This document shows positions 7,054-23,523 of a stretch of DNA of 64,000 nt, one piece after another. The notes beneath the pieces were generated by a model. That model was given only the letters and a program-made list of their open reading frames with translations. It was not told the DNA's origin and searched no databases. A program made the position numbers and the translations under genes. The stretch's first letter is position 1. The number at the start of each line of letters is the position of its first letter. The stretch comes from Trueperella pyogenes (GTDB lineage: Bacteria > Actinomycetota > Actinomycetes > Actinomycetales > Actinomycetaceae), in the NCBI RefSeq assembly GCF_900460345.1, contig NZ_UHHW01000002.1, positions 992,001 through 1,056,000 of the forward strand, given 5' to 3'.

Positions 7054-7076
7054 GTGTCGGAGCGTCACGGTAGGCT
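7054..7076 (+). promoter_or_regulatory. PafBC-like (RecA-NDp type) promoter of polA
   Basis: GTGTCGGAG (7054-7062), eight bases, then TAGGCT (7071-7076), then six bases and the GTG of polA. The layout matches the mycobacterial PafBC motif TTGTCRGTG-N8-TANNNT at seven of nine upstream positions. The same element precedes uvrB and uvrA in this window. Confidence 0.7.
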
Positions 7077-7082
7077 AGAAGG

Positions 7083-9782
7083 GTGAACCAAGATACTCTT
7101 CTTTTGCTCGATGGCCACTCTTTGGCTTTCCGGTCATTTTTTGCGTTGCCTGCCGATTCGTTCGTCACGGCCCAGGGGCAGTACACGAACGCAGTGCACG
7201 GCTTCCTATCCACCCTGCTGAAGTTAGTGGGCGATTACCAACCCACCCATGTGGCGGTGGCTTTCGACTTGCCTGGCGGAACGTTCCGTACCCGCGAGTA
7301 CGCGCAATACAAGGGCGGACGTGCCGCTACGCCCGAGGAGTTCAAGGGACAGATCTCGGTGATTCAAAAGGTCCTTGACGTGATTGGCGTGAAGTGGCTG
7401 ACGTATGAGGACTATGAGGCTGACGACATTGTGGCCACGCTAGCTAGGCGCGGCGAATCGGAGGGGATGAGGGTCTACGTCTCATCCGGTGACAAGGATA
7501 CCTACCAACTCGTCGATGAGAGTATTACGCTCGTCTATCCTATGCCGCGTTCCCAGATGGCTGTGCTCGATCCCGCGGGTATTGAGGCGAAAGCTGGCGT
7601 GAAACCGGCGCTATACTCCGATCTCGCGGCTCTCGTTGGAGAGGGCGCGGACAACATCCCCGGTGTGCCGTTGTGGGGGCCGAAGACGGCCGCAAAATGG
7701 CTTAATCACTATGGCAGCCTTGAAAACCTGTTGGATAACGCACACGAGATTGGCGGCAAGGCCGGCGTGAATCTCCGCGACAACATCGACATGGTTCGGC
7801 GGAACCGCAAACTCAACACCCTGGTCACGGACCTTCCAATCGTGGAGGACTTCGATGAGCTACGGCCAATCGGCGTCGAACGTGAAGCCCTGCATGAGCT
7901 TTTTGACGCTCTTGATTTCACGCGTCTGCGTGAGCGCGTCCTGCGTGAGCTTCCGATGCGTGATGGGCAGTCCGCCACAGAAGAGAACGCCCCCGGCGTC
8001 GTTATCACCCCGATTCCAGCGGGAAGTGTGCCGTTTGCTGATTTTCTTGCCCAGCACGAGGGGCCGTGGGGGATGGAGGTGGACGGCGATCGGCGTCCGC
8101 GCCACGGCGACGTCGTCTCGTTCGCCCTCGCTGCTACGGACGGCCATGTTTACTACGGCGAACGCTCTTTGCTCTCCACCGAGGACGAGCGTGCCTTGGC
8201 CTCCTTCCTCGAGGATGCCAAGAAGGAGAAAATCGGCCACGGTGTGAAAGGCCTCATGCATGCGTGGGCTGGTGTAGGGATCACGCTCGCCGGTGTTGTG
8301 GCTGATACCGAGATTGAGGCCTACTTGCTGCACCCGGATCAGCGAAGCTATGATCTCGAAGATCTCGCGCAGCGGCATTTGGCTCGTGAGATCGCGGGCG
8401 TTTCCCAGGACACCCTGGGCATCAGTGCCGACGGAACGCTCATCGAAAGCTCACTCGTCGAACGCACGGGCGTGCTGCTCGATCTTCACCGCGCTTTCGC
8501 CACGCAGCTGGAGGCTTCGGATCCGACCGGCGTACTCGTCGCTTTGGAGATGGCGGTGGTGGCTGTGCTTTTCGGCATGGAGAATACGGGAATTGCCGTC
8601 GATGTGGACTTGCTGGACTCGCTTTTCTACACTTTTAATACCAGGGTGGAAGACGCGGCTAACAGGGCTCATGACGCGATCGACGATCCCGCTGTCAATC
8701 TCTCCAGCCCGAAACAGCTTCAGGAGGTGCTCTTCGAACGGCTTGGCCTGCCGGTGACGAAGAAAACGAAATCTGGCTATACCACGAATGCTGACGCGCT
8801 CGGCGAACTCCTGGCGAAGATCGCGCGACGTGAAGATGGCGATGCCGTGGCTGCCCAGCAGTTCCTTTCCAGCTTGCTCGAGTACCGTGATGCTCTCAAA
8901 CTTCGCCAATCTGTGGAGGGGCTACAACGTTCGGTGCATACTGACGGTCGGATTCATACCACCTACCAGCAGACGGTGGCCGCCACAGGCCGCCTCTCGT
9001 CTACCGATCCGAACCTGCAAAATATCCACGCGCGAACAGAGGAGGGGCGCCAGATTCGCGAGGTTTTCGTGCCCGGGGCGGGCTACGACTACCTCATGAC
9101 GGCCGACTATTCTCAAATCGAGATGCGCCTGATGGCACACCTGTCCGGCGACGCCGACCTTATCGAAGCCTTCCGCAAGGGCGCCGATCTGCACAACTTC
9201 GTCGCCTCGCGCGTGTTCGGTGTGCCGGAGGATTCCGTCTCAGGTGAGCAGCGCTCGAAGATCAAGGCAATGAGCTACGGTCTGGCCTATGGTCTGTCCT
9301 CATATGGCCTGTCCCAACAACTCCATATTTCGGTGGGGGAGGCCGAGGCTCTCATGCGGGACTACTACGCCAAGTTCGGTAAAGTTCGCCAGTACCTGGA
9401 TTCGGTGGTTGTTGACGCACGTAAGGTCGGCTATACCTCAACAATCTGGGGGCGCAGACGTTACCTTCCGGGCCTGGACAGCACCAACCGGCAACTGCGG
9501 GAGGCCGCTGAACGTATGGCGCTCAACGCTCCTATTCAGGGATCGGCCGCGGACATTATCAAGTTTGCCATGGTAGCCGTTCAAGATGCGCTGACACGGG
9601 CGGGTTTAACCTCACGCGTTCTCCTCCAGGTTCACGACGAACTTGTCCTCGAAGTGACAGCCGCGGAGGCGGAGCAGGTTGAGGCGATTGTTCGGGAGGA
9701 GATGGGCAAGGCCGCCGACCTCACGGTGCCGCTCTCCGTTAGCATCGGGATTGGGCGGAATTGGCGTCAGGCAGCTCACTGA
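7083..9782 (+). CDS. polA: DNA polymerase I
   Basis: This 899-residue protein has the three-part PolA layout. The N-terminal 5' nuclease domain (about 1-300) has DGHSLAFRSFFAL and YEADDIVATLARR. The middle domain is a degenerate 3'-5' exonuclease: the expected DxE motif is replaced around WGMEVDGDRR, so proofreading is presumably lost, as in other actinobacterial PolA. The C-terminal polymerase carries DYSQIEMRLMAHLSGD, RSKIKAMSYGLAYG and QVHDELVLEV. It acts in Okazaki fragment processing and excision repair. The GTG start has no clear ribosome site; a TAGGCT element six bases upstream suggests a leaderless mRNA. The DNA-damage-type promoter fits its repair role. Confidence 0.96.
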   Translation: MNQDTLLLLDGHSLAFRSFFALPADSFVTAQGQYTNAVHGFLSTLLKLVGDYQPTHVAVAFDLPGGTFRTREYAQYKGGRAATPEEFKGQISVIQKVLDVIGVKWLTYEDYEADDIVATLARRGESEGMRVYVSSGDKDTYQLVDESITLVYPMPRSQMAVLDPAGIEAKAGVKPALYSDLAALVGEGADNIPGVPLWGPKTAAKWLNHYGSLENLLDNAHEIGGKAGVNLRDNIDMVRRNRKLNTLVTDLPIVEDFDELRPIGVEREALHELFDALDFTRLRERVLRELPMRDGQSATEENAPGVVITPIPAGSVPFADFLAQHEGPWGMEVDGDRRPRHGDVVSFALAATDGHVYYGERSLLSTEDERALASFLEDAKKEKIGHGVKGLMHAWAGVGITLAGVVADTEIEAYLLHPDQRSYDLEDLAQRHLAREIAGVSQDTLGISADGTLIESSLVERTGVLLDLHRAFATQLEASDPTGVLVALEMAVVAVLFGMENTGIAVDVDLLDSLFYTFNTRVEDAANRAHDAIDDPAVNLSSPKQLQEVLFERLGLPVTKKTKSGYTTNADALGELLAKIARREDGDAVAAQQFLSSLLEYRDALKLRQSVEGLQRSVHTDGRIHTTYQQTVAATGRLSSTDPNLQNIHARTEEGRQIREVFVPGAGYDYLMTADYSQIEMRLMAHLSGDADLIEAFRKGADLHNFVASRVFGVPEDSVSGEQRSKIKAMSYGLAYGLSSYGLSQQLHISVGEAEALMRDYYAKFGKVRQYLDSVVVDARKVGYTSTIWGRRRYLPGLDSTNRQLREAAERMALNAPIQGSAADIIKFAMVAVQDALTRAGLTSRVLLQVHDELVLEVTAAEAEQVEAIVREEMGKAADLTVPLSVSIGIGRNWRQAAH

Positions 9783-9857
9783 CGCCCTCGGCGGCGAGTG
9801 CAGCCGTGGCCGGCTCGTCATCGGCATGTGTCGTGGCATATACACGCATCGTTACGC

Positions 9858-9887
9858 TTGAATCTAAGCCGAACATGCCCGTAGACT
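9858..9887 (+). promoter_or_regulatory. Candidate promoter of rpsA
   Basis: TTGAAT (9858-9863) and TAGACT (9882-9887) are separated by 18 bases, upstream of the rpsA ATG at 9958. The leader would be about 64 bases, with GGAG at 9943-9946. Confidence 0.45.
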
Positions 9888-9957
9888 TAACACTTGGTGT
9901 CAGGCATTTGGCGCCATCCATGTCCGTACTAGTAAATTATCCGGAGTCACCAACTCT

Positions 9958-11424
9958 ATGACGACTAACAATAAGACCTCCGTGGAGGTCGCTATCAACG
10001 ACATCGGCACCGAAGAAGAGCTTATCGCCGCTGTCGACGAAACCATCAAGTACTTCAACGATGGTGACATCGTTGAAGGAACCGTAGTCAAGGTCGACCG
10101 CGACGAGGTCCTGCTCGATATCGGCTACAAGACCGAGGGTGTTATCCCCTCCAAGGAACTTTCCATCAAGCACGACATCGATCCTGATGATGTTGTCGAA
10201 GTTGGTGACCAGATCGAGGCTCTCGTTCTCCAGAAGGAGGACAAGGAAGGGCGTCTTCTCTTGTCGAAGAAGCGTGCTCAGTACGAGCGTGCGTGGGACA
10301 AGATTGAGGAAGTCAAGGAGGCCGACGGCGTCGTTACCGGTACCGTCATTGAGGTCGTCAAGGGCGGCCTGATCCTTGACATCGGTCTGCGCGGCTTCCT
10401 GCCGGCATCGCTGGTGGAGATGCGTCGCGTCCGTGACCTGCAGCCCTACATCGGCCGTGAGCTCCAGGCGAAGATCATCGAGCTGGACAAGAACCGCAAC
10501 AACGTTGTTCTTTCCCGCCGCTCCTGGCTCGAGCAGAGCCAGTCTGAGATCCGCGCCCACTTCCTTGACACCCTCCAGAAGGGTCAGGTTCGTGAAGGCG
10601 TCGTCTCTTCGATCGTCAACTTCGGTGCGTTCGTTGACCTCGGTGGCGTTGACGGACTCGTGCACGTCTCCGAGCTGTCTTGGAAGCACATCGACCACCC
10701 GTCCGAGGTTGTCGAAGTGGGCACCCCGGTCACGGTCGAGGTTCTCGACGTCGACATGGATCGCGAGCGCGTATCCCTCTCGCTGAAGGCCACCCAGGAA
10801 GATCCGTGGCAGACCTTCGCCCGCACTCACCGCATCGGCCAGGTTGTGCCGGGTCGCGTGACCAAGCTCGTTCCGTTCGGCGCGTTTGTCCGCGTCGAGG
10901 ACGGCATCGAGGGTCTCGTCCACATCTCCGAGCTCGCCCAGCGCCACATCGATCTGCCGGAGCAGGTTGCCAAGGTGGGCGACGAGGTCTTCGTCAAGGT
11001 CATCGACATCGATCTCGAGCGTCGTCGCATCTCCCTCTCGCTCAAGCAGGCCAATGAGGGCGTGGATCCGCACTCGGAGGACTTCGATCCGTCGCTGTAC
11101 GGCATGACCGCCGAATACGACGACGAGGGCAACTACAAGTACCCGGAGGGCTTCGACCCCGAGGCGAACGAGTGGCTTGAGGGCTTCGAAGAGAACCAGG
11201 CTGCGTGGGAGGCCGAGTACGCGAAGGCCGAGGAGCGCTGGACCGCACATAAGAAGCAGGTTCTGGCTCACATGGAGGCAGACGCCGAGGCCGCCGCAGC
11301 GGGCGATACTTCCGCTCCGGCCGAACCGGCACCGGCTTCCTACTCGTCGGGCAACGACGCCGCTGGCACGCTTGCGTCCGACGAGGCGCTTGCTGCTCTT
11401 CGTGAGAAGCTCACCGGCAACTAA
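9958..11424 (+). CDS. rpsA: 30S ribosomal protein S1
   Basis: RpsA recruits mRNA to the 30S subunit. Four S1 (OB-fold) domains are visible: about residues 36-106, 122-190, 208-277 (VNFGAFVDLGGVDGLVHVSEL) and 293-363 (VPFGAFVRVEDGIEGLVHISEL). The last two are the best conserved. They are followed by an acidic stretch and a low-complexity Ala/Pro/Ser tail. At 488 residues it is the four-domain actinobacterial form. It sits between polA and coaE as in mycobacteria, although here a foreign-looking segment separates it from coaE. Codon use is strongly biased, as expected for high expression. An intrinsic terminator follows. Confidence 0.97.
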   Translation: MTTNNKTSVEVAINDIGTEEELIAAVDETIKYFNDGDIVEGTVVKVDRDEVLLDIGYKTEGVIPSKELSIKHDIDPDDVVEVGDQIEALVLQKEDKEGRLLLSKKRAQYERAWDKIEEVKEADGVVTGTVIEVVKGGLILDIGLRGFLPASLVEMRRVRDLQPYIGRELQAKIIELDKNRNNVVLSRRSWLEQSQSEIRAHFLDTLQKGQVREGVVSSIVNFGAFVDLGGVDGLVHVSELSWKHIDHPSEVVEVGTPVTVEVLDVDMDRERVSLSLKATQEDPWQTFARTHRIGQVVPGRVTKLVPFGAFVRVEDGIEGLVHISELAQRHIDLPEQVAKVGDEVFVKVIDIDLERRRISLSLKQANEGVDPHSEDFDPSLYGMTAEYDDEGNYKYPEGFDPEANEWLEGFEENQAAWEAEYAKAEERWTAHKKQVLAHMEADAEAAAAGDTSAPAEPAPASYSSGNDAAGTLASDEALAALREKLTGN

Positions 11425-11462
11425 GACTTGACGCAGGGTAGATAGCCCGCTCAAATTTACAC

Positions 11463-11496
11463 GCGCCCCGCTAATCTCTTGTGATTGGCGGGGCGC
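11463..11496 (+). terminator. rpsA intrinsic terminator
   Basis: GCGCCCCGC (11463-11471) pairs perfectly with GCGGGGCGC (11488-11496). The stem extends inward by TAATC/GATTG with one G-T pair and closes on a six-base loop. A short T-rich tail (ACTGTTTCTC) follows. Confidence 0.85.
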
Positions 11497-11696
11497 ACTG
11501 TTTCTCTAAGGGTGGCTGACCAATATGTTGGCGGTCATGGTTTCCGAGCATTTCGCCAGAGCTTTCTCATACTGTCATCCACGTGCCAGTATGCAGGTGA
11601 TTTGTTAGCGACATGTAAGACACGTAGCATATTTAATGCATTACAGTTCCGTGCGTGCAACTGTGATGATTCTTCAATGGGGAAGGAGCAAGCGGT
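11497..11696. other. AT-rich spacer, no confident gene
   Basis: This stretch is clearly more AT-rich than its surroundings and marks the left edge of the ABC-exporter insert. An open frame (in-frame GTG at 11512, stop at 11698-11700) would encode about 62 residues with four cysteines, but it has no proper ribosome binding site and begins next to the rpsA terminator. It resembles nothing I recognise. It could be a decayed peptide gene. No tRNA, riboswitch or repeat is visible. Confidence 0.4.
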
Positions 11697-11762
11697 ATGA
11701 ACAGATCATTGTCTGCGCACTTTTCTTTAGTTGTCTTCTTAATGGGGGCTGTCGAGGGTTAG
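11697..11762 (+). CDS. 21-codon ORF resembling a signal peptide; possible remnant
   Basis: An ATG at 11697 is preceded by GGAAGGAG (11681-11688) with an ideal 8-base spacing, the best ribosome binding site in this region. It opens a 21-codon frame with a polar, Arg-containing N-terminus (MNRSLSAH) and a hydrophobic core (FSLVVFLMGAV), then stops at TAG 11760-11762. The shape is that of an export signal without a mature part. It may be the truncated start of a secreted peptide gene, a leader peptide, or chance. It lies 34 bases before the permease gene. Confidence 0.3.
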   Translation: MNRSLSAHFSLVVFLMGAVEG

Positions 11763-11796
11763 TTGCATCTGGATCTACTAGTATTCGAGGGTACAG

Positions 11797-13851
11797 ATGG
11801 TACATCAGCTTTTTGTTAAGCGAATCATTGTAGGGCTTACCTCATTTTTTCTTATGATATGTTTATTTGCCCTGGCAGCGATTCCTATTGAGCTTGATGC
11901 GAGGCATTCGATAGCGAACTCGCGTTCTCCTGAATACGTTGTTGATGAAGAGGACGCGAGTTTCGCATACCGGGTGGACAATCTCTTTATCGATTCACAC
12001 TTGGTGGGAGTGTTAGAACTCGAACCCGTCGGTGGTGGCTTTGTGGTTCCGGTAGGGTTATCCGATTCGCTGGAGCCGGGTCATATCGCGGTGTCGAAGG
12101 CTGCAGTACAGTATTCGGATATTTTAGAAAGACAGTTTGGCCCAGTTCAGGCTGTTATCGATGAGTCAGTAATCCTTGAAGGTGAGCTTGTCGTTTACTA
12201 CCGACCCAGTAACGGTCAAGCGTTTCTTGACATGGCAAGAAAAGGTGAGGGGGTCTACTTCGCTTCTGGATTTGCCAACGACGGTCGTACGGGCGCGCTC
12301 TTCGGGGATATTACCTACGAGTTGTGGTCGCAGTATTTGTTGCCGATTGCTCTGCTTGTTTTCGCTTTTCCGCTTATTCAAAATCTTCGCACTACACGAG
12401 CAGCGGTGGACGAATCACTTGCCGGTGAGCGTTTTGTGCTTGAATCTATAGGTGCTCCGCGTCGTGAGCTGATACGCCATTCGGTTAACTATCTTTACAA
12501 GCCCTTTTTGTTGGGCGTGAGTCTTGCTGCTTTGCTTATTGTGGTGTTGATAGCTGGATGCGTGAGTGTGCCGCTGACTGGTTTTCGTCTGCACACCCAT
12601 CTTTATACTGACAAGCTTGCACTACGCATCGGATACTTCGCCTTAGGTGCGGGCTTGGCGTTTGCCTACTTGGCCTGGCCGCGTTTACAGTGGGCGCGGC
12701 CTCATTCACACAGACGACGGTTGGTTGGCACCGGAAGTGGGCTTGCGCTATTCGGCCTGGGGATTGTTATTGCCGCTATCATGAGGCTGTGGTACGTGAA
12801 GATCCCCAGTAATCTTATGGTGTTTTTGATGCTGGCCTCGGTCTTCTTCGTACTCATGGGGCTGCATTCAACTCTTGCGGTGCTGTGTACGGTAATGACT
12901 CGTGTTGCTATCAGGATCATGGGTAAAGACCTCCGGGCTGGTGTGTTCTTCCGTTGGGTGATTCACCATCCTTATGACGCATCTCGAACAGGCACTTTCG
13001 CTGGAAGTTTTGTATCGGTCGGGGTGATTCTCGTAGCCGTCTTCGCAACCATCGCTGGAGCCCAAGTTCCCCCTCCACGCCCTCCGGACGGTATCCAGAT
13101 TGTGAAGACGTCGCTCAATTGCGATGGGGACTATACGGCGTGTCTGAAAGGCGCAGCAGACAGAGTTCGTTCCTCTGATCCTACGGCTGCTGTTTATGTT
13201 GCCGCCTATGGTCAAGGTGTTGCACAGGTCAGCGCCGGCCAGGTGGACCCGGCGTTTTTGTCGCAGTTTATTCACTATGGACTAGGTCCAGAATATGGTG
13301 GTGAGGTTGACGAGATATCGTTAGAGTCGCGTTGGGCATGGATCTATACGATTTCTGACCAAAATTCGGACTTGCTGTCGCATGTCCAAAAGATCACGTT
13401 CGATACGGCGATCGTGGCCTTGTCTATCATCGATGGGGAAAATGGGCGTGCGATAGCGCAGATATATCGTCAACAGGCATCGTGGTTGACTTTGTTGACC
13501 ACGCTATCTTTCATCTATGCGATGGTGTCAGTGTGGATGCAGTTCATGCGAGAGGCTGGCCATCATGCCAAAGAATTTGCTTCGATCGCATCTATAACAG
13601 GCAAGGCGGATATGATTGCGCGAACGATCAGTATGCGTCTTACGCTGGTCAATATCGTCACAGGAATCCTCTCCTTGAGTGTCGGTATCTTCCTTGCTCA
13701 CCAGTTCTTGTTCCCCATTGGCGGGTTTTTCCCGTCTACATTCATCATCAGCGTAGGAGCCATCTATCTCATGTTTACTCTCACCCAAGGAATTCTGATG
13801 TATGTGCTGGTGAGAAACGAAGCGTCTAGCTGGCTGCCCGGAAAGAGGTAA
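11797..13851 (+). CDS. ABC transporter permease with two FtsX-like halves
   Basis: A 684-residue membrane protein. A first helix at about 8-28 is followed by a ~145-residue extracellular region. A helix group comes next, including FVLESIGAPRRELIRHSVNYLYKP, typical of FtsX/MacB-type permeases. After more helices there is a second extracellular region (about 420-545, with two close cysteines) and a final helix group (SIASITGKADMIARTISMRL). Size and two-gene layout resemble the 'bacteriocin-associated integral membrane protein' plus ATPase pairs found with lactococcin 972-type bacteriocins; that link is inference from architecture. GAGGG (11787-11791) precedes the ATG. Base composition is lower in GC than in flanking housekeeping genes, which suggests acquisition. 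Confidence 0.75.
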   Translation: MVHQLFVKRIIVGLTSFFLMICLFALAAIPIELDARHSIANSRSPEYVVDEEDASFAYRVDNLFIDSHLVGVLELEPVGGGFVVPVGLSDSLEPGHIAVSKAAVQYSDILERQFGPVQAVIDESVILEGELVVYYRPSNGQAFLDMARKGEGVYFASGFANDGRTGALFGDITYELWSQYLLPIALLVFAFPLIQNLRTTRAAVDESLAGERFVLESIGAPRRELIRHSVNYLYKPFLLGVSLAALLIVVLIAGCVSVPLTGFRLHTHLYTDKLALRIGYFALGAGLAFAYLAWPRLQWARPHSHRRRLVGTGSGLALFGLGIVIAAIMRLWYVKIPSNLMVFLMLASVFFVLMGLHSTLAVLCTVMTRVAIRIMGKDLRAGVFFRWVIHHPYDASRTGTFAGSFVSVGVILVAVFATIAGAQVPPPRPPDGIQIVKTSLNCDGDYTACLKGAADRVRSSDPTAAVYVAAYGQGVAQVSAGQVDPAFLSQFIHYGLGPEYGGEVDEISLESRWAWIYTISDQNSDLLSHVQKITFDTAIVALSIIDGENGRAIAQIYRQQASWLTLLTTLSFIYAMVSVWMQFMREAGHHAKEFASIASITGKADMIARTISMRLTLVNIVTGILSLSVGIFLAHQFLFPIGGFFPSTFIISVGAIYLMFTLTQGILMYVLVRNEASSWLPGKR

Positions 13852-13852
13852 A

Positions 13853-14497
13853 ATGAGCATCCTTCAATGTCACAACCTCACATGTGGCTACACCGGTCCG
13901 TTGTTTGCTCCGCTCGACCTTGAGCTCAACCCTGGCGAAACCGTCGCTATCATGGGTCGTTCTGGCGTCGGTAAGACGACCCTGTTGACGACCATTCTTG
14001 GAATGAACCGTCCGCTTGGTGGCACTGTTGTCATTAATGGAATTGACGTTCACCAGCTCAAATTCGACCAACTCGCACGACTGAGATCGACGACGATAGG
14101 TACCGTATTCCAAAACGGTGAACTCCTCAGCGGTTATAGTGCCTTGGATAATGTGATGCTGCCACGCTTACTCTGGGACAAGCACGATCCAACCGTGCAA
14201 GATGAAGCCGCACAACTCTTGCGTGAGCTAGACGTGGAAAAAACACGTATGGCTGAACAACTATCTGGTGGAGAACGGCAACGAACAGCTCTGGCTCGGG
14301 CTCTCATTAATAACCCTGCGGTGATCCTTGCAGATGAGCCCACCGGAGCACTCGATGCTGACTTGCGTGACGAGGCCATGGATCTGTTACTTACCCAGGT
14401 ACGACGGCGTCAATGCTGTCTCATGCTCGTCACGCATGATCCTGCCATCGCGCAAAGAGCCGACCGAATAATCAAGCTGGTACGCCAAGAAATATAG
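13853..14497 (+). CDS. ABC transporter ATP-binding protein (MacB/LolD-like)
   Basis: The 214-residue nucleotide-binding subunit has Walker A GRSGVGKTT, a Q-loop in TVFQNGELL, signature LSGGERQRTALARAL, Walker B VILADEPTGALD and switch histidine VTHD. It is of the MacB/LolD/FtsE type that pairs with FtsX-like permeases. It starts directly after the permease stop, so the two form one transporter. The substrate is not identified: peptide or lipoprotein export, or self-protection from a peptide, are the usual roles of this class. A short gap (43 bases) separates it from pcp. Confidence 0.88.
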   Translation: MSILQCHNLTCGYTGPLFAPLDLELNPGETVAIMGRSGVGKTTLLTTILGMNRPLGGTVVINGIDVHQLKFDQLARLRSTTIGTVFQNGELLSGYSALDNVMLPRLLWDKHDPTVQDEAAQLLRELDVEKTRMAEQLSGGERQRTALARALINNPAVILADEPTGALDADLRDEAMDLLLTQVRRRQCCLMLVTHDPAIAQRADRIIKLVRQEI

Positions 14498-14528
14498 CGG
14501 AGAGCATGGTGTTCGGGGGCGTATTCGC

Positions 14529-14534
14529 TAGACT
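14529..14534 (+). promoter_or_regulatory. -10 element of pcp (leaderless)
   Basis: TAGACT is followed by six bases and then the ATG of pcp, with no ribosome binding site between. It does not carry the TGTCGGAG box seen at polA, uvrB and uvrA. Confidence 0.5.
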
Positions 14535-14540
14535 CGTTAC

Positions 14541-15098
14541 ATGTCGATTCTCTTAACCGCCTTCGGCCCTTTTGGCCCTAACTCGTACAATCCCACTGAG
14601 CATGTTGCTCGGCTTGTGGAGGAGCGGTGGTCCCACCCGGCGCAGCTTTCGGTGGAGATTTTGCCCGTCGAATACGCCACCGCACGGGAGCGCATTTTTG
14701 CTTTGGGCCCTTTCGACGTCCATCTCGCCCTCGGGCTCGCCGCCGACCGGGACGTGCCCACGTTGGAGCGCTTTGCGATGAACCGGCAAGAAGCCGCGGC
14801 ACCCGACAACGCTGGGTACGTGGCGGCGGGGGAGAGTATTGACGAGTCAGCACCGCTTGCCTTCGAGACGACGCTGCCGTTCCGCCGCCTGATCGAGCAC
14901 GCCAATGCCGCTGGCTATCGTGTGAGGGAGTCGCGTACAGCAGGGCTGTATGTGTGCAACACGGTCATGTTCAGTGCCATCCAGACGTCACAGTGCGCCG
15001 GCTTTCTCCACCTTCCACCGGCGGAGGCTTTCTCTGTAGAAGATGGCGCCGGGCTCGTTGAACTCTTGCTGGGCGAATTGGTCGCGAACCAATGCTGA
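14541..15098 (+). CDS. pcp: Pyroglutamyl-peptidase I (C15 family)
   Basis: Pcp removes N-terminal pyroglutamate from peptides in the cytoplasm. The 185-residue protein begins LLTAFGPFGPNSYNPT (family pattern TGFEPFGG...NPS). It keeps the catalytic triad: Glu76 in TLERFAMN, Cys139 in GLYVCNTV and His157 in FLHLP. It is slightly shorter than the usual ~210 residues, from small internal deletions rather than loss of motifs. Its 3' end overlaps coaE by seven bases, suggesting coupled translation. The start appears leaderless. Confidence 0.88.
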   Translation: MSILLTAFGPFGPNSYNPTEHVARLVEERWSHPAQLSVEILPVEYATARERIFALGPFDVHLALGLAADRDVPTLERFAMNRQEAAAPDNAGYVAAGESIDESAPLAFETTLPFRRLIEHANAAGYRVRESRTAGLYVCNTVMFSAIQTSQCAGFLHLPPAEAFSVEDGAGLVELLLGELVANQC

Positions 15099-15949
15099 CC
15101 ATCGCACTAACTGGCGGGATCGGCTCGGGCAAGTCGCATGTGGCCGCGATCTGGGCCGGTCTTGGTGCCCACGTCGTCGACGCCGACCAGGTTGCCCGCG
15201 AGGTCTTATCCGGCGGCCAGATTCGTGAGGCAATCAAGCGGCGGTGGGGCGACGGCGTCGTGAAGGCCGAAGGGACGCTTAACCGGGAAGCACTCGCCGC
15301 CATCGTGTTCCAAGAACCAGCCGAGCGGGCAGCCCTCGACGCGATCACGCACCCAGCGATTTGGGACGCGGTCAAGCAGGATATTGATGCGACGCTCTGC
15401 GCGGATCCTGCCGCCGTCATTGTTTACGACGTTCCACTGCTCTTCGGTTATGGGCGCGAGTTCGAGATGATGGCAAACGTGTCGATCGCGGCTGACGAGG
15501 AGATTCGGATCGAGCGCTTAACGCGCAATCGGGGGATGAGCAGACAGGCTGCGCGGGCACGCATTGATTCGCAAGCTACCGACGCGGAACGCGGGCGCAT
15601 CTGCGACCTCGTGATATCCAACGACGCCGATCGGGCCGCTGTTCGCGCCGCTGCCGAGACTGCGTGGCATGAGTGGATTGTCCCATTTAACGACGCCTTG
15701 ATGAACAAGACGTGGGCGGCGGGCACACTTTCCCATGCGGCGCTACGCGTCAACGACGACGTCGGCGTGCACCTGGAGCGATTGCGCTACCGCGGCCTGC
15801 ACGCCGAGCATGGAGCTGACGGGTTCATAGTTGATGGGCCGGAAGAGAGCCTTTTGACCGCTGGATGGTTCGAAGAGGGCAGCCGGTGGCGGCTCGCCAA
15901 CCCGGCGCTAGATATGACGGCGCAGCGGCGAGATTCCCTGTCGGCATAG
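15092..15949 (+). CDS. coaE: Dephospho-CoA kinase with C-terminal extension
   Basis: CoaE phosphorylates dephospho-CoA, the last step of coenzyme A synthesis. The N-terminal ~200 residues form the kinase: P-loop TGGIGSGKS at residues 7-15, VVDADQVAREV, the lid region and YDVPLLFGYG. About 85 further residues follow the normal end. Mycobacterial CoaE is fused to a GrpB-like domain; the extension here is far shorter and I cannot recognise it, so it may be a remnant or a lineage-specific tail. The gene overlaps pcp, and its end lies just upstream of the uvrB promoter. The coaE-uvrB order is conserved in actinobacteria. Confidence 0.93.
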   Translation: MLTIALTGGIGSGKSHVAAIWAGLGAHVVDADQVAREVLSGGQIREAIKRRWGDGVVKAEGTLNREALAAIVFQEPAERAALDAITHPAIWDAVKQDIDATLCADPAAVIVYDVPLLFGYGREFEMMANVSIAADEEIRIERLTRNRGMSRQAARARIDSQATDAERGRICDLVISNDADRAAVRAAAETAWHEWIVPFNDALMNKTWAAGTLSHAALRVNDDVGVHLERLRYRGLHAEHGADGFIVDGPEESLLTAGWFEEGSRWRLANPALDMTAQRRDSLSA

Positions 15950-15960
15950 TCTTTGCAGAA

Positions 15961-15983
15961 ATGTCGGAGGGAGGAACTAGCCT
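15961..15983 (+). promoter_or_regulatory. PafBC-like (RecA-NDp type) promoter of uvrB
   Basis: ATGTCGGAG (15961-15969), eight bases, TAGCCT (15978-15983), six bases, then the uvrB ATG at 15990. The GGAGGGAGG run inside the spacer is too far from the ATG to serve as a ribosome site, which supports a leaderless start. Confidence 0.7.
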
Positions 15984-15989
15984 TAAAGC

Positions 15990-18038
15990 ATGCGACCCAT
16001 CAGTGACATCATTCGCCAAGAAGCGCCCTTCGAGGTTATCTCCGAGTATTCGCCCTCGGGCGATCAGCCGCAGGCTATTGCGGAACTGGCCGAGCGGATC
16101 AATAACGGCGAATCGGACATCGTGCTCCTCGGCGCCACAGGTACGGGTAAGTCAGCCACCACGGCCTGGCTTATTGAGCAGATTCAGCGCCCCACGCTCA
16201 TCTTGGAGCCAAACAAGACCTTGGCGGCACAGATGGCCGCAGAATTTCGTGAGTTGTTACCGAACAATGCGGTCGAATACTTCGTCTCCTACTATGACTA
16301 CTACCAGCCAGAGGCCTATGTGCCCCAGTCGGATACCTTCATCGAAAAGGATTCCTCGATTAATGACGAGGTGGAGAGGCTGCGTCACTCTGCCACGAAC
16401 TCGCTGCTGACGCGGAGGGACGTGGTGGTGGTCGCCTCGGTGTCGTGTATTTATGGCCTGGGCACGCCGCAGGAGTATGTGGATCGGATGGTCCAGCTTC
16501 AGGTGGGCGATCAGCTAGATCGTGACCAGCTGCTCAAGCGCTTCGTGCAGATGCAGTACACGCGAAACGACATGGCCTTCACGCGCGGCACGTTCCGCGT
16601 TCGCGGCGACACGGTGGAGATCATTCCGGTCTACGAGGAGCTGGCGGTACGCATCGAGTTTTTCGGCGACGAGATCGACTCAATCTCACTCCTTCATCCG
16701 CTGACGGGCAAGGTGATTCGCGAATCCGACCACGCTCACATTTTCCCAGCCTCCCACTACGTGGCTGGTCCAGAGCGCATGGAACGGGCGATGGCCTCAA
16801 TCAAAGCGGAACTTGACGAGCGGCTTGCGCAGCTGCGCGATCAGAACAAACTACTGGAAGCTCAGCGCCTGGAAATGCGCACCACGTTCGACCTTGAGAT
16901 GATGCGCAACCTCGGCTCCTGCGCGGGTATCGAGAACTATTCGCGCCACATTGATGGGCGTGGACCCGGCACCGCCCCCAACACCCTGCTGGACTACTTC
17001 CCGGAAGATTTCGTGCTGGTCATCGACGAATCCCACGTCACTGTGCCGCAGATCGGAGCGATGTACGAGGGCGACATGTCTCGCAAACGCACGCTCGTCG
17101 AATACGGCTTCCGCCTGCCGTCGGCGATGGACAACCGCCCGCTGAAGTGGGAGGAGTTCCTTGAACGCATCGGACAGACCGTCTACCTTTCTGCGACACC
17201 GGGCAAGTACGAGCTCGAGAAGTCCGACGGGTGGGTCGAACAGATCATCCGCCCCACCGGCCTCGTGGATCCCGAGGTCATCGTCAAGCCGACCAAGGGC
17301 CAGATTGACGACCTGCTCGAAGAGGTTCGGATCCGCACTGAGCGTGACGAACGCGTGCTCGTGACCACACTGACGAAGAAAATGGCCGAGGATCTGACCG
17401 ATTACATGGCCGAGCGGGGCATCAAGGTCGAGTACTTGCATTCTGACGTCGATACCCTTCGCCGGGTTGAACTGCTGCGTGAGCTCCGCATGGGCAAGTT
17501 TGACGTACTCGTGGGTATCAACCTTCTGCGTGAGGGCCTCGACCTCCCCGAAGTGTCGTTGGTTGCTATTCTCGACGCCGACAAGCAGGGCTTCCTGCGT
17601 TCCACGACCTCCCTTATTCAGACGATTGGGCGCGCCGCCCGAAATGTGTCCGGCCAGGTACACATGTACGCAGACTCGATTACGCCGAACATGCGCGAGG
17701 CGATAGACGAGACCAATCGTCGTCGTGAAAAGCAGATCGCGTATAACACCGAGCACGGGATCGATCCGCAACCACTTCGCAAGAAGATCTCGGACGTGAC
17801 GGACATGCTGGCGCGCGAAGACATCGACACGGAGGCGCTGCTGGAGGGTGGATACCGCAAGGAAACACGCGTGGCCGATCGGCTTTCGCAAGATGGAACG
17901 GAGATTCGCCAGCTCCTGGAAGACCTCACCGAGCAAATGCATGCGGCCGCGGAGCAGCTCCAGTTTGAACTCGCGGCCCGCCTGCGCGACGAAATCTTGG
18001 ACGTGAAAAAGGAGCTCCGGCAGATTGAAAACGCCTGA
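15990..18038 (+). CDS. uvrB: Excinuclease ABC subunit B
   Basis: UvrB is the damage-verifying helicase-like subunit of nucleotide excision repair. It opens [17 protein letters not shown], has Walker [12 protein letters not shown] and the DNA-clamping beta-hairpin [21 protein letters not shown]. Helicase motifs include VIDESHVT (DExH-type Walker B), LSATPG and QTIGRAARN, and the C-terminal UVR domain binds UvrC. At 682 residues the length is normal. A damage-type promoter abuts the ATG. uvrA and uvrC follow 2.6 and 5.5 kb downstream. Confidence 0.97.
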
Positions 18039-18051
18039 TGTTGCCCACCCC

Positions 18052-18067
18052 ACGCACGTCAGTGCGT
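18052..18067 (+). terminator. Short hairpin after uvrB
   Basis: ACGCAC (18052-18057) pairs with GTGCGT (18062-18067) around a 4-base loop, 13 bases after the uvrB stop. It lacks a T-run, so it is a weak terminator at best. Confidence 0.35.
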
Positions 18068-18087
18068 CGCCTGGCTTGGGTGTCGAT

Positions 18088-18093
18088 TATGAT
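18088..18093 (+). promoter_or_regulatory. -10 element for riboswitch/terC transcript
   Basis: TATGAT would place transcription start near 18100, exactly where the first stem of the downstream riboswitch begins. No convincing -35 hexamer is seen. Confidence 0.45.
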
Positions 18094-18102
18094 CATGTAG
18101 AG

Positions 18103-18219
18103 CGGAGGGGAGTACTCCCACTCAATACCGGCTCGTCAATACGGCTTTATCGCCCGGGTCGCGGCCTGATGCCAGGCGGGAAGAGACCTCTGGTACCTGT
18201 TAGCCTGTACCGGAAAGGC
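18103..18219 (+). ncRNA. yybP-ykoY-type (Mn2+) riboswitch upstream of terC
   Basis: The aptamer closes with P1 CGGAGG (18103-18108) against CCTCTG (18187-18192). Just inside are the conserved GGGGAGTA (18107-18114), GGCTCGTCAATACGG (18130-18144) and AAGAGACCTCTG (18181-18192). These match the family pattern GGGGAGUAG ... GUCGUCA ... GAC CU and lie upstream of a TerC gene, its classic target. Downstream, GGTAC (18192-18196) can pair with GTACC (18207-18211). GCCT (18203-18206) can pair with AGGC (18216-18219), which would mask the GGAAAGG ribosome site at 18212-18218. A translational switch is therefore plausible. Induction of TerC by manganese is the expected outcome, by family knowledge. Confidence 0.8.
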
Positions 18220-18224
18220 AAAAG

Positions 18225-19325
18225 TTGTTATCACATATGGCGTTAGGTGCTTATACTGCACCGGTCGGATCCCAGATGCATGTCGAACCGTGGGAGTGGG
18301 CACTCCTCGGTGTCATCGTAGTCGGTCTCATTGCCCTCGATCTGTTGGGACACGTGCGCAAGGCACACGAGCCGACCATTGCGGAAGCTGCTAGGTGGAC
18401 GTCCTTTTATGTCTCGCTCGCCATCCTTTTCGGCGTGCTGACATACTTCCGGCACGGTTCCCAGTTTGCCACCGAGTATTTTGCCGGCTACCTCACGGAA
18501 TACTCGCTTTCGCTGGACAACATCTTCGTCTTCATCATTATTATTGCCGCATTCAGAGTGCCGCGGATCTACCAGCAAAAAGTCCTCCTGTACGGAATCA
18601 TTATCGCGCTCATTTTGCGTCTCATCTTCATTCTCATCGGTGCCAAGCTCATCGAACAGTTCGTGTGGGTGTTTTTCGTCTTTGGCGCATGGATGCTCTA
18701 CACCGCGATCAAGCAGGTGCTCGACGGCATCCACGAAGGCCGTAAGCGCAAGGCACACGAGCACCTCGACGACGAAGAATACGAGCCGACGGCGGTGACT
18801 CGCCTCATCTCTCGCGTCGCCAACGTGACGGACGGATACGTGGGCGACCGGTTGGTTGTGCGCCGCCACGGTAAGACGTGGATCACTCCGCTCATGCTCT
18901 GTATCCTCAGCGTCGGCACGATCGATCTCATGTTCGCACTCGATTCCATACCGGCAATCTTCGGCCTGACCCGCGAACCTTTCATCGTCTTCGCCGCCAA
19001 TGCCTTTGCGCTCTTAGGCCTGCGTCAACTCTTTTTCCTCGTGGACGGGCTGCTCGAGCGACTGATTTATCTCCACTACGGCCTCGCCGTCATTCTCGGC
19101 TTCATCGCCATCAAGCTTCTGATCCATGCCGCGCACGGCTACGATCTGGCGCATATGATCCCGGAACCTTCGATCGGCGTCTCGGTGGGGGTTATCCTCG
19201 GAACGATCCTCATCACGGTTGTGGCTTCCATCGTCGGATCGCGCAAGCTCTCACCAGCTGACCGCGTGGCAAACATCGAGCCACGCGAGAAGAGAAAGCC
19301 GTCGCTCGGGGACAAGGACAGCTGA
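18225..19325 (+). CDS. TerC-family membrane protein (probable Mn2+ exporter)
   Basis: A 366-residue integral membrane protein with about eight to nine helices. It shows TerC hallmarks: EYSLSLDNIFVFIIII (acidic metal-binding helix) and the second copy SVGTIDLMFALDSIPAIFG, with FFVFGAWMLYTAIKQ between. TerC/Alx proteins have been linked to manganese efflux, matching the upstream riboswitch. The TTG at 18225 is preferred because GGAAAGG lies six bases before it; the ATG at 18237 would have an 18-base spacing. A hydrophilic cytoplasmic loop (about 180-205) is rich in Lys, Asp and Glu. It is convergent with the SBF transporter gene, with only 11 bases between the stops. Confidence 0.9.
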   Translation: MLSHMALGAYTAPVGSQMHVEPWEWALLGVIVVGLIALDLLGHVRKAHEPTIAEAARWTSFYVSLAILFGVLTYFRHGSQFATEYFAGYLTEYSLSLDNIFVFIIIIAAFRVPRIYQQKVLLYGIIIALILRLIFILIGAKLIEQFVWVFFVFGAWMLYTAIKQVLDGIHEGRKRKAHEHLDDEEYEPTAVTRLISRVANVTDGYVGDRLVVRRHGKTWITPLMLCILSVGTIDLMFALDSIPAIFGLTREPFIVFAANAFALLGLRQLFFLVDGLLERLIYLHYGLAVILGFIAIKLLIHAAHGYDLAHMIPEPSIGVSVGVILGTILITVVASIVGSRKLSPADRVANIEPREKRKPSLGDKDS

Positions 19326-19336
19326 GCCAACCATCT

Positions 19337-20305
19337 TTACTCCGGTTGAGGTTCTCGGCCCAGCCTGCGCGCGATCACTGCGCACGCCATGAGTTGAATT
19401 TGGTGGAAGACGATGACGGGCACGACCACCGCGCCCACGACACTCGGGTCGAACAAAGCCTTTGCCATGGGTAAGCCAGTAGCCAGCGATTTCTTCGAAC
19501 CGCACATGAGCAGCACGATCCGTTGCGCGCGCGTAAACGTGAGCCACCTGCCGCCATGCCAAGTGAGCGTCAGCATGAGAGACAAGATCACGCCGAGGAT
19601 GAGGAACAGCAAGGCAAAGCCCGCGAACGTCACTGAGCTCCATGCGCCGTCGGCCGTCGCTTTGACGACTGCGACGAAAACGACGAGGATGATCGCGCCG
19701 TTGTCGGTGTACTTCGTGATATTACGGTGAGCGCGCACCCAGTCGCCGACTTTCGGTTGAAGAAGCTGACCGAGGACGAAAGGCAACAGGAGCTTGAGAA
19801 GCACCGACTGGAGGCCGCCGGTGTGTGCGCCTTCGAGATTCATCAGCAGGAGTACCAACAGCGGCGAGAGAAACATGCCCAAGATGTTGGAAACGGTGGC
19901 CGCGCAAACTGCTGCGCCGACGTCGCCGCGCGCGATAGATACGAAAGTCACGGAGGACTGGACGGTCGAAGGCAGAAGGCTGAGGTACAACATGCCGGTG
20001 GCGAAGGCCACGCCGACAAACCCGCCGACGGCGTAGTAAAGTACCAGGCCAACAACTGGGAAGACGATATAGGTGGAAGCTAGGACCGCAGCCTGGAGCT
20101 TGATATTGCGCATGCCTTCGACGACTTCGCTCGTGCGCAGGCGCATGCCGTACACGAGAAAGACCAGGCCAACGCCGACGTCGGCTAAGGCGGATAGCTG
20201 CGCAATATGGTACGGCGGCACCGGGAGCAGCAGCCCCAGGATGAGGGCTAGGACGATCCCGGTGAGAAGGAAGTCGGGGCGGAAGCGTCTACGCCCAGGG
20301 GCCAT
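19337..20305 (-). CDS. Bile acid:sodium symporter (SBF) family transporter
   Basis: This ~322-residue membrane protein has nine to ten predicted helices. LLLPVPPYHIAQLSALADVGVGLVFLVYGMRL matches the SBF-like (DUF4137) subfamily, with helix-breaking prolines and MLYLSLLPSTVQSSVTF and MCGSKKSLATGLPMAKALF as inverted-repeat crossover segments. The substrate is unknown; relatives carry organic anions with sodium. The ATG at 20305 starts at MAPGRRRFRPDFLL, just before the first helix; upstream in-frame codons would read through the YciI gene. It overlaps the YciI gene end by 17 bases and is probably co-transcribed with it. Confidence 0.85.
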   Translation of the reverse strand: MAPGRRRFRPDFLLTGIVLALILGLLLPVPPYHIAQLSALADVGVGLVFLVYGMRLRTSEVVEGMRNIKLQAAVLASTYIVFPVVGLVLYYAVGGFVGVAFATGMLYLSLLPSTVQSSVTFVSIARGDVGAAVCAATVSNILGMFLSPLLVLLLMNLEGAHTGGLQSVLLKLLLPFVLGQLLQPKVGDWVRAHRNITKYTDNGAIILVVFVAVVKATADGAWSSVTFAGFALLFLILGVILSLMLTLTWHGGRWLTFTRAQRIVLLMCGSKKSLATGLPMAKALFDPSVVGAVVVPVIVFHQIQLMACAVIARRLGREPQPE

Positions 20306-20564
20306 AGATCTGGGTCCACTCGAGTACCTCACGATCGGCGATGAGACAAGCCGAATTGAACGGGTCCGCATCGACTACGGCGAGTGCCCCGACGGCGTCG
20401 TCGGCATCAACGATCAGGAGCGCACCATTTCCCTCTAGCGGGCCGGACGCCAGCAGGTTGCCCTGGTCGAAAAGTGACTTGAGAAACTCGCGGTGGGCGG
20501 GACGGATCTCAGCAAGAGCGTCAAGATCATCTGTGTAGGTGTATCGAACTGCGTAAATAGCCAT
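20289..20564 (-). CDS. YciI-like (YCII domain) protein
   Basis: A 91-residue single-domain protein with the YCII fold pattern: MAIYAVRYTY first strand, the histidine in RPAHREFLKSLFDQGNLLASGPL, then VDADDAVGALAVVDADPF and a C-terminal strand. The conserved His and downstream Asp are the presumed active site in this family, whose function is poorly known. It lies upstream of, and overlaps, the SBF transporter gene and is divergent from uvrA. TACGAT (20571-20576, minus strand) six bases before the ATG indicates a leaderless transcript. Confidence 0.85.
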   Translation of the reverse strand: MAIYAVRYTYTDDLDALAEIRPAHREFLKSLFDQGNLLASGPLEGNGALLIVDADDAVGALAVVDADPFNSACLIADREVLEWTQIYGPWA

Positions 20565-20570
20565 GTCTTC

Positions 20571-20576
20571 ATCGTA
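20571..20576 (-). promoter_or_regulatory. -10 element of the YciI-SBF operon (leaderless)
   Basis: On the minus strand TACGAT, six bases, then the ATG of the YciI gene. No Shine-Dalgarno sequence is present. Confidence 0.45.
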
Positions 20577-20600
20577 GTGGATTGGCTTGTGGCAAAAACA

Positions 20601-20616
20601 TCAAACAAGCGTTCGA
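20601..20616. promoter_or_regulatory. Candidate LexA (SOS) box upstream of uvrA
   Basis: TCAAACAAGCGTTCGA differs by one base from the Gram-positive/actinobacterial SOS box TCGAAC-N4-GTTCGA. It ends three bases before the PafBC-like element of uvrA and lies between the divergent YciI and uvrA genes. Confidence 0.65.
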
Positions 20617-20619
20617 TTT

Positions 20620-20642
20620 GTGTCGGAGGTGGTGTCTAGACT
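20620..20642 (+). promoter_or_regulatory. PafBC-like (RecA-NDp type) promoter of uvrA
   Basis: GTGTCGGAG (20620-20628), eight bases, TAGACT (20637-20642), seven bases, then the uvrA GTG at 20650. The spacing and -10 match those at polA and uvrB. Confidence 0.7.
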
Positions 20643-20649
20643 GAGGAAC

Positions 20650-23523
20650 GTGCACGATCATATTCACATCCAAGGCGCCCGCGAACACAATCTCCGCAAC
20701 GTCACGCTGGATATTCCGCGTGACAAGATGGCAGTTTTTACCGGACTATCTGGTTCGGGGAAATCATCGTTGGCCTTCGACACGATCTTTGCGGAAGGCC
20801 AGCGGCGTTACGTCGAATCGCTGTCCGCCTACGCGCGCCAATTCCTCGGACAGATGGACAAACCAGATGTGGATTTCATCGAGGGGCTCTCGCCTGCTGT
20901 GTCTATCGATCAAAAATCTACGAACCGCAATCCGCGCTCCACGGTTGGCACGATTACCGAAGTCTATGACTATCTGCGCCTTCTGTATGCGCGTGCCGGT
21001 ACACAATACTGCCCTGTGTGCGGGGAGCGCATTGAGGCACAGAGCGCCGAAAAGATCGTGGATCGCTTGCTGCGCCTCGAAGAGGGCACGCGCTTTCAGA
21101 TTCTTGCTCCAGTGGTTCGCGGACGCAAGGGAGAACACGTTGACGTTTTCCGGCAACTCGGCGCTGACGGTTACTCGCGTGCACGAGTGGACGGCGAACT
21201 TATTCGGCTGAGCGAGCCGCCCACGCTCGCTAAGACGAAGAAGCATAATATCGACGTCGTCGTGGATCGCCTCGCGATCCGTGAAGGGATGCGCGCACGT
21301 CTCAACGATTCTGTGGAAACCGCGTTACGCCTGGCCGACGGGCGGTTGATTGTGGACTTTGTCGATCGCGACGCCGACGACCCGCTGCGCACACGGAAGT
21401 TTTCCGAGTATCGTTCCTGCCCGAACGAACACGTGCTCGAAATCGAAGAGATCGAACCTCGTACCTTCTCTTTCAACGCTCCCTACGGCTCGTGTCCAGA
21501 TTGTGATGGCATCGGCTACACGGTACAAGTATCTGAAGACTTGGTCATCGGCGATGAGGATCTCACCCTCGATGAAGGCGCGATCATACCGTGGTCAACT
21601 ACCGCATCTGGCCCAGCGCGCGACTATCACATGCGCCAGCTTGAGGGCTTGGGTGAGCAACTCGGTTTCGATCTGAATACGAAGTGGAAGGATATTCCCC
21701 GAGAGGCGCAAGACGCGATCCTCAATGGTCACAACTTCAAGGTAAAGATGAAGTACCGCAATCGCTGGGGGCGCGAAAAGGTATATTCGTCCGGCTTCGA
21801 GGGTGTGTTGCACTTCGTTAAACGCAAGCACGAGGAAACGAGTTCCGAGTGGTCGCGCGAACGCTACGAGGGCTTCATGCGCGAGGTCACCTGCCAGACA
21901 TGCGGGGGAGCACGACTTCGCCCAGAAGTGCTCGCCGTGCGGGTAGGAGAACTGAACATCTTCGAGCTGACGGAAATGTCGATCGGAGACGCACACGAAT
22001 ACCTTGCCAACCTGGAATTGGGCGAGCGCGAGCGCAAGATTGCCGACGCCGTCCTCAAAGAGATCCTTGAGCGGCTCAGCTTCCTCGTCACCGTGGGGTT
22101 GGACTACCTCACCCTCTCTCGATCCGCCGGCACGCTCTCAGGCGGCGAGGCACAGCGTATTCGGCTGGCCACCCAGATCGGAGCCGGGCTTGTCGGCGTG
22201 CTTTACGTGTTAGACGAACCGTCTATCGGCCTGCATCAACGCGACAACGAGAAACTGCTTTCAGCTTTGTTACGGCTGCGCGATCTAGGTAACACACTCA
22301 TCGTCGTTGAGCACGACGAGGACACGATCCGCGCGGCGGACTGGGTGGTCGACATCGGCCCGCGCGCCGGCGAGCACGGAGGTAAAGTGGTCTACTCGGG
22401 TGAGCCTGCGGGTTTACTCGAATGCGAAGACTCCCTGACGGGTGCCTACCTAAAGGGAACGCAGAAGATCGAGGTGCCGGCAAAACGGCGTCGTACATAT
22501 AAGACCAAGCAGATTGAAGTGACGGGCGCGCGGGAGAACAACCTCCAAAACATCGACGTGAAGTTCCCGATCGGGGTGATGACAGCGGTCACGGGCGTAT
22601 CCGGCTCAGGTAAGTCCTCGCTCGTCAACACCATCCTCTATCGCGTGCTCGCGAACAAGCTCAACCGCGCTCAGTCTCTCCCCGGCAAACACGGCAAGGT
22701 CAAGGGCCTGGAGGGCCTCGACAAGGTCGTGCACGTAGATCAGTCACCCATCGGGCGCACTCCGCGCTCGAACCCAGCCACGTACACGGGCATGTGGGAT
22801 CCGATTCGCAAGCTCTTCGCGGAGACAGAGGAGGCGAAGATCCGTGGGTATGGTCCGGGGCGCTTCTCCTTCAACGTCAAGGGCGGCAGATGTGAGGCCT
22901 GCGCGGGCGATGGCACGCTGAAGATCGAGATGAACTTTCTCCCCGACGTCTACGTACCCTGCGAGGTCTGCCACGGCACGCGCTACAATCGCGAAACCCT
23001 CGAGGTCCACTACAAGGGAAAGAACGTCGCCGAAGTGCTCGACATGACGATCTCGCAAGCGCGGGAATTTTTCTCCTCGGTTACCCGGATCACGAAGTAC
23101 CTTGAGGTGCTGGAGAATGTGGGACTCGGCTATATCAAGCTTGGCCAACCGGCTACCACGCTTTCGGGTGGCGAAGCGCAGCGCGTCAAACTCGCCTCGG
23201 AGCTTCACCGCCGCTCAACTGGCCGGACGGTCTACATGCTCGATGAGCCAACCACCGGCTTGCATTTCGAGGACGTGCGCAAGCTACTCGGTGTCCTGCA
23301 AGAGCTTGCAGACAAGGGCAATACGATCATTGTCATCGAGCATAACCTCGACGTCATCAAATCGGCCGATTGGGTGATCGATCTCGGTCCCGAAGGAGGC
23401 AAGGGTGGCGGTATGCTCGTTGCTGAAGGCACGCCCGAGGAAGTGGCCCTTGTGGAGGGCTCCCACACGGGCAAGTACCTCAAGCCGATCCTGAAGAAGG
23501 CAGGAACGCTGGAGGTGGACTGA
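20650..23523 (+). CDS. uvrA: Excinuclease ABC subunit A
   Basis: UvrA dimers find DNA lesions and load UvrB. The protein has two ABC modules. The first Walker A lies in [14 protein letters not shown], the first zinc finger starts at [10 protein letters not shown], and the first signature is [12 protein letters not shown] with Walker [11 protein letters not shown]. The second Walker A is [10 protein letters not shown], the second zinc region CEACAGDG...CEVCHG, and the second signature [12 protein letters not shown] with [12 protein letters not shown] 20650 ([15 protein letters not shown]) fits the usual UvrA N-terminus, giving 957 residues. The nearby GAGGA is too close to act as a normal ribosome site, but TAGACT seven bases upstream supports leaderless initiation. 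Confidence 0.97.

Follow-up and report, generated by a model that had tools for sequence, protein, structure and literature searches.

In mycobacteria, according to PMC11804915, single-stranded DNA (ssDNA) binds the WYL domains of a PafB-PafC heterodimer. PafBC then associates with the housekeeping holoenzyme of RNA polymerase and sigma A; the helix-turn-helix (HTH) of PafB engages the -26 motif and that of PafC touches domain 4 of sigma A. The promoters of this kind (RecA-NDp, or recA P1) carry the motif tTGTCRgtg-N8-TannnT, in which lower-case letters are not strict (PMC5656591, excerpt), and the M. tuberculosis motif is given as TGTCGG-N10-TANNNT, with position 7 free (PMC8151990, excerpt). 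DriD of Caulobacter and other WYL regulators are likewise ssDNA-binding activators of a damage response (excerpts of PMC12340889 and PMC11804915); these were reported as homodimers, in contrast to the PafBC heterodimer (PMC11804915).

We analyzed a window of 64,000 nucleotides from Trueperella pyogenes (family Actinomycetaceae; host genome G000), in which an earlier note had described one promoter element shared by three DNA-repair genes. The element is of the known kind, in a variant spelling. It shares with the RecA-NDp promoters of Mycobacterium the TGTC-R-G core, the N8 spacer, the TANNNT hexamer, recA and repair genes as targets and the presence of pafB and pafC, which form a gene pair in the host. 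It departs from them in having A at position 7, a stretch of five A/T-rich bases 5' of the box in the host genus, and cas3 and an extracellular-nuclease gene among the genes assigned to it. Hereafter, A-box designates TGTCGGAG, and T-box TGTCRGTG, with T at position 7.

Promoter elements of polA, uvrB and uvrA

All three elements lie where the earlier note had placed them, the spacer is exactly eight bases in each, the distances from -10 to start codon are as it had given them, and the gene identities agree with Pfam (Table 1). The resemblance to the PafBC motif that it had pointed out holds as well: a TGTCRG core followed after N10 by TANNNT matches the motifs in the excerpts of PMC5656591 and PMC8151990. 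In each element, A replaces the T of the mycobacterial consensus at position 7.

Table 1. Promoter elements, target genes and regulator genes in the window
Feature	Position	Strand	Remarks
PafBC-type box TGTCGGAG of polA	7055..7062	+	within 9-mer GTGTCGGAG, 7054-7062
polA -10, TAGGCT	7071..7076	+	6 bases, then GTG at 7083
polA (DNA polymerase I)	7083..9782	+	PF00476
PafBC-type box TGTCGGAG of uvrB	15962..15969	+	within 9-mer ATGTCGGAG, 15961-15969
uvrB -10, TAGCCT	15978..15983	+	6 bases, then ATG at 15990
uvrB	15990..18038	+	Pfam
SOS-like LexA site TCAAACAAGCGTTCGA at uvrA	20601..20616	+	1 mismatch to TCGAACNNNNGTTCGA
PafBC-type box TGTCGGAG of uvrA	20621..20628	+	within 9-mer GTGTCGGAG, 20620-20628
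uvrA -10, TAGACT	20637..20642	+	7 bases, then GTG at 20650
uvrA	20650..23523	+	Pfam; GTG 20650 is a start compatible with the -10
uvrC	23578..25554	+	Pfam
pafC	59051..60007	-	WYL and WCX above Pfam cut-off
pafB	59979..60896	-	WYL (PF13280); N-terminal HTH by alignment; candidate reader of the box

The pattern RTGTCGGAG-N8-TANNCT occurs three times in the window and in none of 100 shuffles. With one mismatch allowed, TGTCGGAG-N8-TANNNT has four matches, the three known and one more, against a mean of 0.62 in shuffles, only one of which out of 100 reached four. These shuffles, together with the reversed-motif control given below, rule out a chance origin of the elements. The longest open reading frame (ORF) of uvrA starts at 20587, that is, 5' of the promoter. 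Downstream, uvrC has no box of its own in a window scan allowing up to one mismatch, and its transcription may come by read-through from the promoter of uvrA.

The earlier note had also assigned pafB and pafC to 59051-60896, and domain and structure-sequence matches support both. PafB aligns with the PafB part of the solved structure 6sj9 (E 1.2e-9, best stretch residues 9-295) and PafC with the PafC of 7p5x (E 1.8e-5); the HTH_PafC domain of the latter protein scores 29.1, below the Pfam cut-off of 32 bits. The two ORFs overlap on the same strand, and the two classified neighbours of the pair are a DUF3866 gene and a diacylglycerol-kinase-like gene. Two arginines of the PafB recognition helix, described as strictly conserved in an excerpt of PMC6789036, are retained in the aligned window protein. 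Autoregulation was discarded: no box is found before pafB at up to one mismatch. The hexamer TAAGGT stands seven bases upstream of the pafB ATG (60896), so the pafBC mRNA may lack a leader and escape control by its own product.

The box across the host genome

A genome-wide scan, as the earlier note had proposed, yields 26 exact TGTCGGAG-N8-TANNNT sites in 2.31 Mb against 0 for the reversed control; extrapolation from the one-mismatch window shuffles sets the chance expectation at about 0.7. The looser pattern TGTCNGNG has 40 sites against 8 in the control. A good part of its 14 extra sites is probably noise; some are likely real, such as TGTCGGTG before ftsK. We assigned each exact site to the downstream long ORF, leaving divergent genes aside. 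Names come from domain searches on proteins that are in many cases truncated by the ends of 3-kb loci, and several rest on scores below NCBIfam full-length cut-offs.

By our tally, 15 of the 26 assigned genes are concerned with repair, recombination, replication or topology: polA, uvrB, uvrA, recA, dnaE (replicative type by its best NCBIfam match), recG, pcrA, a second UvrD-like helicase, imuA' (followed by an ImuB-like gene), xth, topA, a gyrB/parE-type gene, a DEDD exonuclease with a UvrC-like part, a PD-(D/E)XK nuclease and an RmuC-like gene. Among the targets that had been expected, recA is present; radA, lexA and dnaE2 are absent from the 26 assigned genes, and radA carries a box in two other genera. 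For the other 11, a role in repair is not evident: cas3, an ExeM/NucH-like extracellular nuclease, an NAD diphosphatase, a histidine kinase, a protein mannosyltransferase-like gene, two peptidases, a transglycosylase, and genes with DUF3039, DUF3043 and DUF4357. Of the 23 sites in a second species of the genus, 13 share targets with the host (one matched by eye), and recurrence is partial in two other genera. The ExeM/NucH-like gene has its box in both Trueperella species read site by site, with 42% protein identity, and is possibly a damage-inducible secreted nuclease.

At 17 of the 26 sites the -10 is followed, at a distance of exactly 6-7 nt, by an ATG or GTG; each other offset read has such a codon at 0-3 sites (binomial p 1.8e-13 against the rate at other offsets). 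Sixteen of these codons start the assigned gene; that of recA opens a short ORF. Judged from the usual distance between -10 and transcription start, such spacing places the start of transcription likely at the start codon, so that most of these transcripts should be leaderless. The same geometry is seen at 15 of 23 sites in the second species of the genus, and at 6 of 17 and 10 of 20 in two other genera. The two Trueperella species have the same recA box, spacer and -10, and in contrast to the leaderless targets the gene starts 86-87 nt past the -10. We considered a leaderless short ORF conserved ahead of recA and dropped it, the ATG of G000 being absent in G002.

The SOS regulon overlaps this gene set, with recA, imuA' and probably uvrA as common targets, and differs from it in its box and in its logic: release of LexA repression instead of activation. 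We scored SOS-like sites against TCGAACNNNNGTTCGA, which we take to be the LexA consensus. The host encodes lexA (L205), with an exact SOS box upstream. Within 120 nt of the 26 sites and at up to two mismatches, four have an SOS-like sequence, where about one is expected: imuA' (exact, directly after the -10), recA and uvrA (one mismatch each) and topA (two). None is found at uvrB or polA within these limits. The site at uvrA, which the earlier note did not mention, ends four bases 5' of the PafBC-type box. Dual control of uvrA by PafBC and LexA is likely; across a gap of four bases, LexA and the PafBC-polymerase complex could hardly be bound together. With both kinds of box readable by eye, the regulon could be predicted almost gene by gene. 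The PafBC studies consulted deal with the mycobacterial regulator.

Conservation of the box and of PafB among relatives

A scan of named genomes, which may omit the host genome and its near kin, returned 80 uvrB loci, of which we analyzed 30, all actinobacterial; those set aside belonged to other phyla or to other actinobacteria, or had too little upstream DNA. The element TGTC-N12-TANNNT occurs within 160 nt upstream of uvrB in 22 of the 30, spelled TGTCRGTG in 16, TGTCGGAG in one (Microbacterium) and otherwise in five. It was not found within this distance in Rothia, two Bifidobacterium, Mobiluncus, Corynebacterium and three MAGs. In 15 of 26 loci the distance from the element to the aligned uvrB start is 28-29 nt, the leaderless position, and five further loci look leaderless by eye from a nearby start codon; four loci (L062, L065, L068 and L069, one of them with TGTCCCCT) are excluded from the aligned-start, polA and uvrA counts. 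PafBC-type control of uvrB thus looks old, with TGTCRGTG as its commonest spelling. Where the N-terminus was reached, 2 of 7 named polA loci and 5 of 8 named uvrA loci have the element upstream, so conservation is less clear there than for uvrB. The host family has it at only 10 of 30 uvrB loci, and it must often have been lost or respelled there. In some boxless genera of that family (L143, L146, L150, L159), we observed by eye an SOS-like sequence before uvrB, as if its control had passed from PafBC to LexA.

At uvrB of Streptomyces, Saccharothrix and Hamadaea (L066, L081, L085), the box reads TGTCGTAG, TGTCGTAC or TGTCATAC, at the same spacing. An initial search suggested that the M. smegmatis motif was not conserved in S. 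venezuelae (PMC9380542, excerpt); a different spelling of the box is perhaps the cause.

The earlier note had called the box lineage-specific. It is indeed a variant spelling; however, several genera of the host family and a further family of the order also have more of it than of the T-box, and it is covered by the M. tuberculosis motif excerpted from PMC8151990. The host genome itself has 26 A-type and 6 T-type sites, and both kinds are present in the host-family sample (61 genomes). Among 149 genomes of the order, A-boxes outnumber T-boxes in part of the host family, in family f14 and in some members of f19, and T-boxes lead in many others. The A-boxes read in six f14 and f19 genomes (30 of 59) include those of uvrB, recA, uvrA and polA.

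We aligned PafB-like proteins from 105 of the 125 genomes with a hit (20 excluded); 23 rows were of neither box type. The residue following an ERD-like motif in the recognition helix, at the next-but-one place to the conserved arginines, is L, I or V in all 14 host-family A-type genomes (one with QRD) and K in 61 of 62 T-type rows, the remaining row being unreadable. The A-type genomes of f14 keep K (6 of 6). On a FastTree PafB tree, box type requires at least two changes, both forced by starred branches, against a mean of 18 for shuffled labels; the tree carries long-branch warnings, and gain and loss are indistinguishable on it. With only two changes, the residue signal in the host family may be a single event. 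Orthologous promoters of the two Trueperella species, those of ftsK and of an MscS-like gene, swap A and T. Given the K of f14 and these swaps within a genus, we do not claim a one-residue recognition code in PafB. These observations suggest a loosely held position 7 that drifts from one lineage to another, while the spacing and, for the majority of sites read in the genus, the leaderless geometry persist.

Boxes also accompany the regulator. In host-family genomes, the median number of A- plus T-boxes is 7 with a PafB hit (n = 41) and 2 without (n = 20; p 0.008), a hit being defined at E 0.001 and possibly including other WYL proteins. In family f3, PafB hits are absent from all ten sampled genomes, which total 1 A-box and 4 T-boxes. 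Counter-cases exist: G163 has a PafB hit with 0 A- and 3 T-boxes, and G160 has 21 boxes without a hit. G178 has 17 A-boxes, none at uvrB. In G123, a 1.5-Mb genome of the host genus, PafB is 39% identical and there are 0 A-boxes and one T-box, none at uvrB; its PafB may use another box, or its regulon may have changed.

We consider it very probable that the three elements are PafBC-dependent promoters of the RecA-NDp type. This reading draws on the 26 sites against none, the share of repair-type genes, the start-codon geometry, the 22 of 30 uvrB loci, the recurrence in relatives, the PafB-box pairing and the presence of pafB and pafC in the window. We count against it the 10 of 30 loci of the host family, the four genomes just named, the PafC domain below cut-off, the 11 targets without a repair role and a citation concerning ClgR: an excerpt of PMC5656591 refers to a study on M. 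smegmatis in which the P1 promoter is recognised by ClgR. A ClgR-like activator might accordingly read the box, with the host PafBC doing another job, and G123, G163 and G160 do break the pairing of PafB with the box. Yet boxes are commoner where PafB is found, box type changes far less often along the PafB tree than under shuffled labels, and it is the HTH of PafB that engages the -26 motif (PMC11804915), which makes this explanation improbable.

We give the same low weight to plain constitutive sigma A promoters in which the upstream part owes its conservation to something else, polA, uvrB and uvrA then not being damage-inducible. Several targets are housekeeping genes (dnaE, topA, polA), and TANNNT stands 6-7 nt before a possible start in 11 of the 45 long ORFs of the window, only three of which have the box. 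However, an 11-base split signal at fixed spacing, found 26 times against 0 and mostly at repair genes, would be superfluous for a plain -10 promoter. That LexA is the main controller and the PafBC-type box a relic seems very unlikely indeed: lexA is encoded and SOS boxes do occur at imuA', recA and uvrA, but at up to two mismatches and within 120 nt, SOS-like sites accompany only 4 of the 26 boxes, and neither uvrB nor polA has one.

Under PafBC control, we infer that the elements are damage-inducible as follows. The PafB of the window would read TGTCGGAG and sigma A would read TAGNCT, and transcription would begin at about the first base of the start codon. DNA damage would raise the levels of leaderless polA, uvrB and uvrA mRNAs along with those of about 20 further genes; LexA would probably repress uvrA, recA and imuA' as well.

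A box before cas3

One of the 26 sites, a perfect TGTCGGAG-GCCAGAAT-TATGCT (L020, 1501-1522), lies 35 nt before cas3, whose start follows a ribosome-site-like GCGGAGG identified by eye. The gene belongs to a type I-E locus (L197, G000:C2:1741000-1757000) with cas3, cse1, cse2, cas7, cas5, cas6, cas1, cas2 and a CRISPR array of 61-nt period. G149, a genome of another genus with an A-type PafB, matches the host at 88.9% from the first base of the box into cas3. The 22-mer element is identical at 22 of 22 positions and the leader at 27 of 35 (Fisher p 0.014); at 89% identity, 22 of 22 has a chance probability of 7.5%. On the 5' side of the G149 box blastn finds no match, and by eye no convincing alignment appears beyond about 25 nt. 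Selection on the cas3 element is suggested by this pattern.

A box at cas3 as a general feature is ruled out: within 400 nt upstream, it is present at 2 of 25 host-family cas3 loci (24 genomes), those of G000 and G149, and absent at the other 23, which include that of the second species of the host genus and the second cas3 of G149. The fragmentary loci L191-L194 and L196 fall outside this count. We advance only tentatively, at somewhat less than an even chance, that PafBC may also activate the CRISPR-Cas immune system. The ssDNA produced by phage replication, or by Cas3 itself, could then raise the supply of Cas3, forming a feedback from DNA damage to immunity in which ssDNA sensing would be linked to CRISPR-Cas control. 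In titles and the beginnings of abstracts, we found no link between PafBC and CRISPR or between an SOS box and a cas operon, and CRISPR in the excerpt of PMC8151990 is a silencing tool. The proposed link is new to us, and the cas3 promoter would be the part worth an experiment. A look-alike of the box, TGTCCGGG, is present at the cas3 gene of G151.
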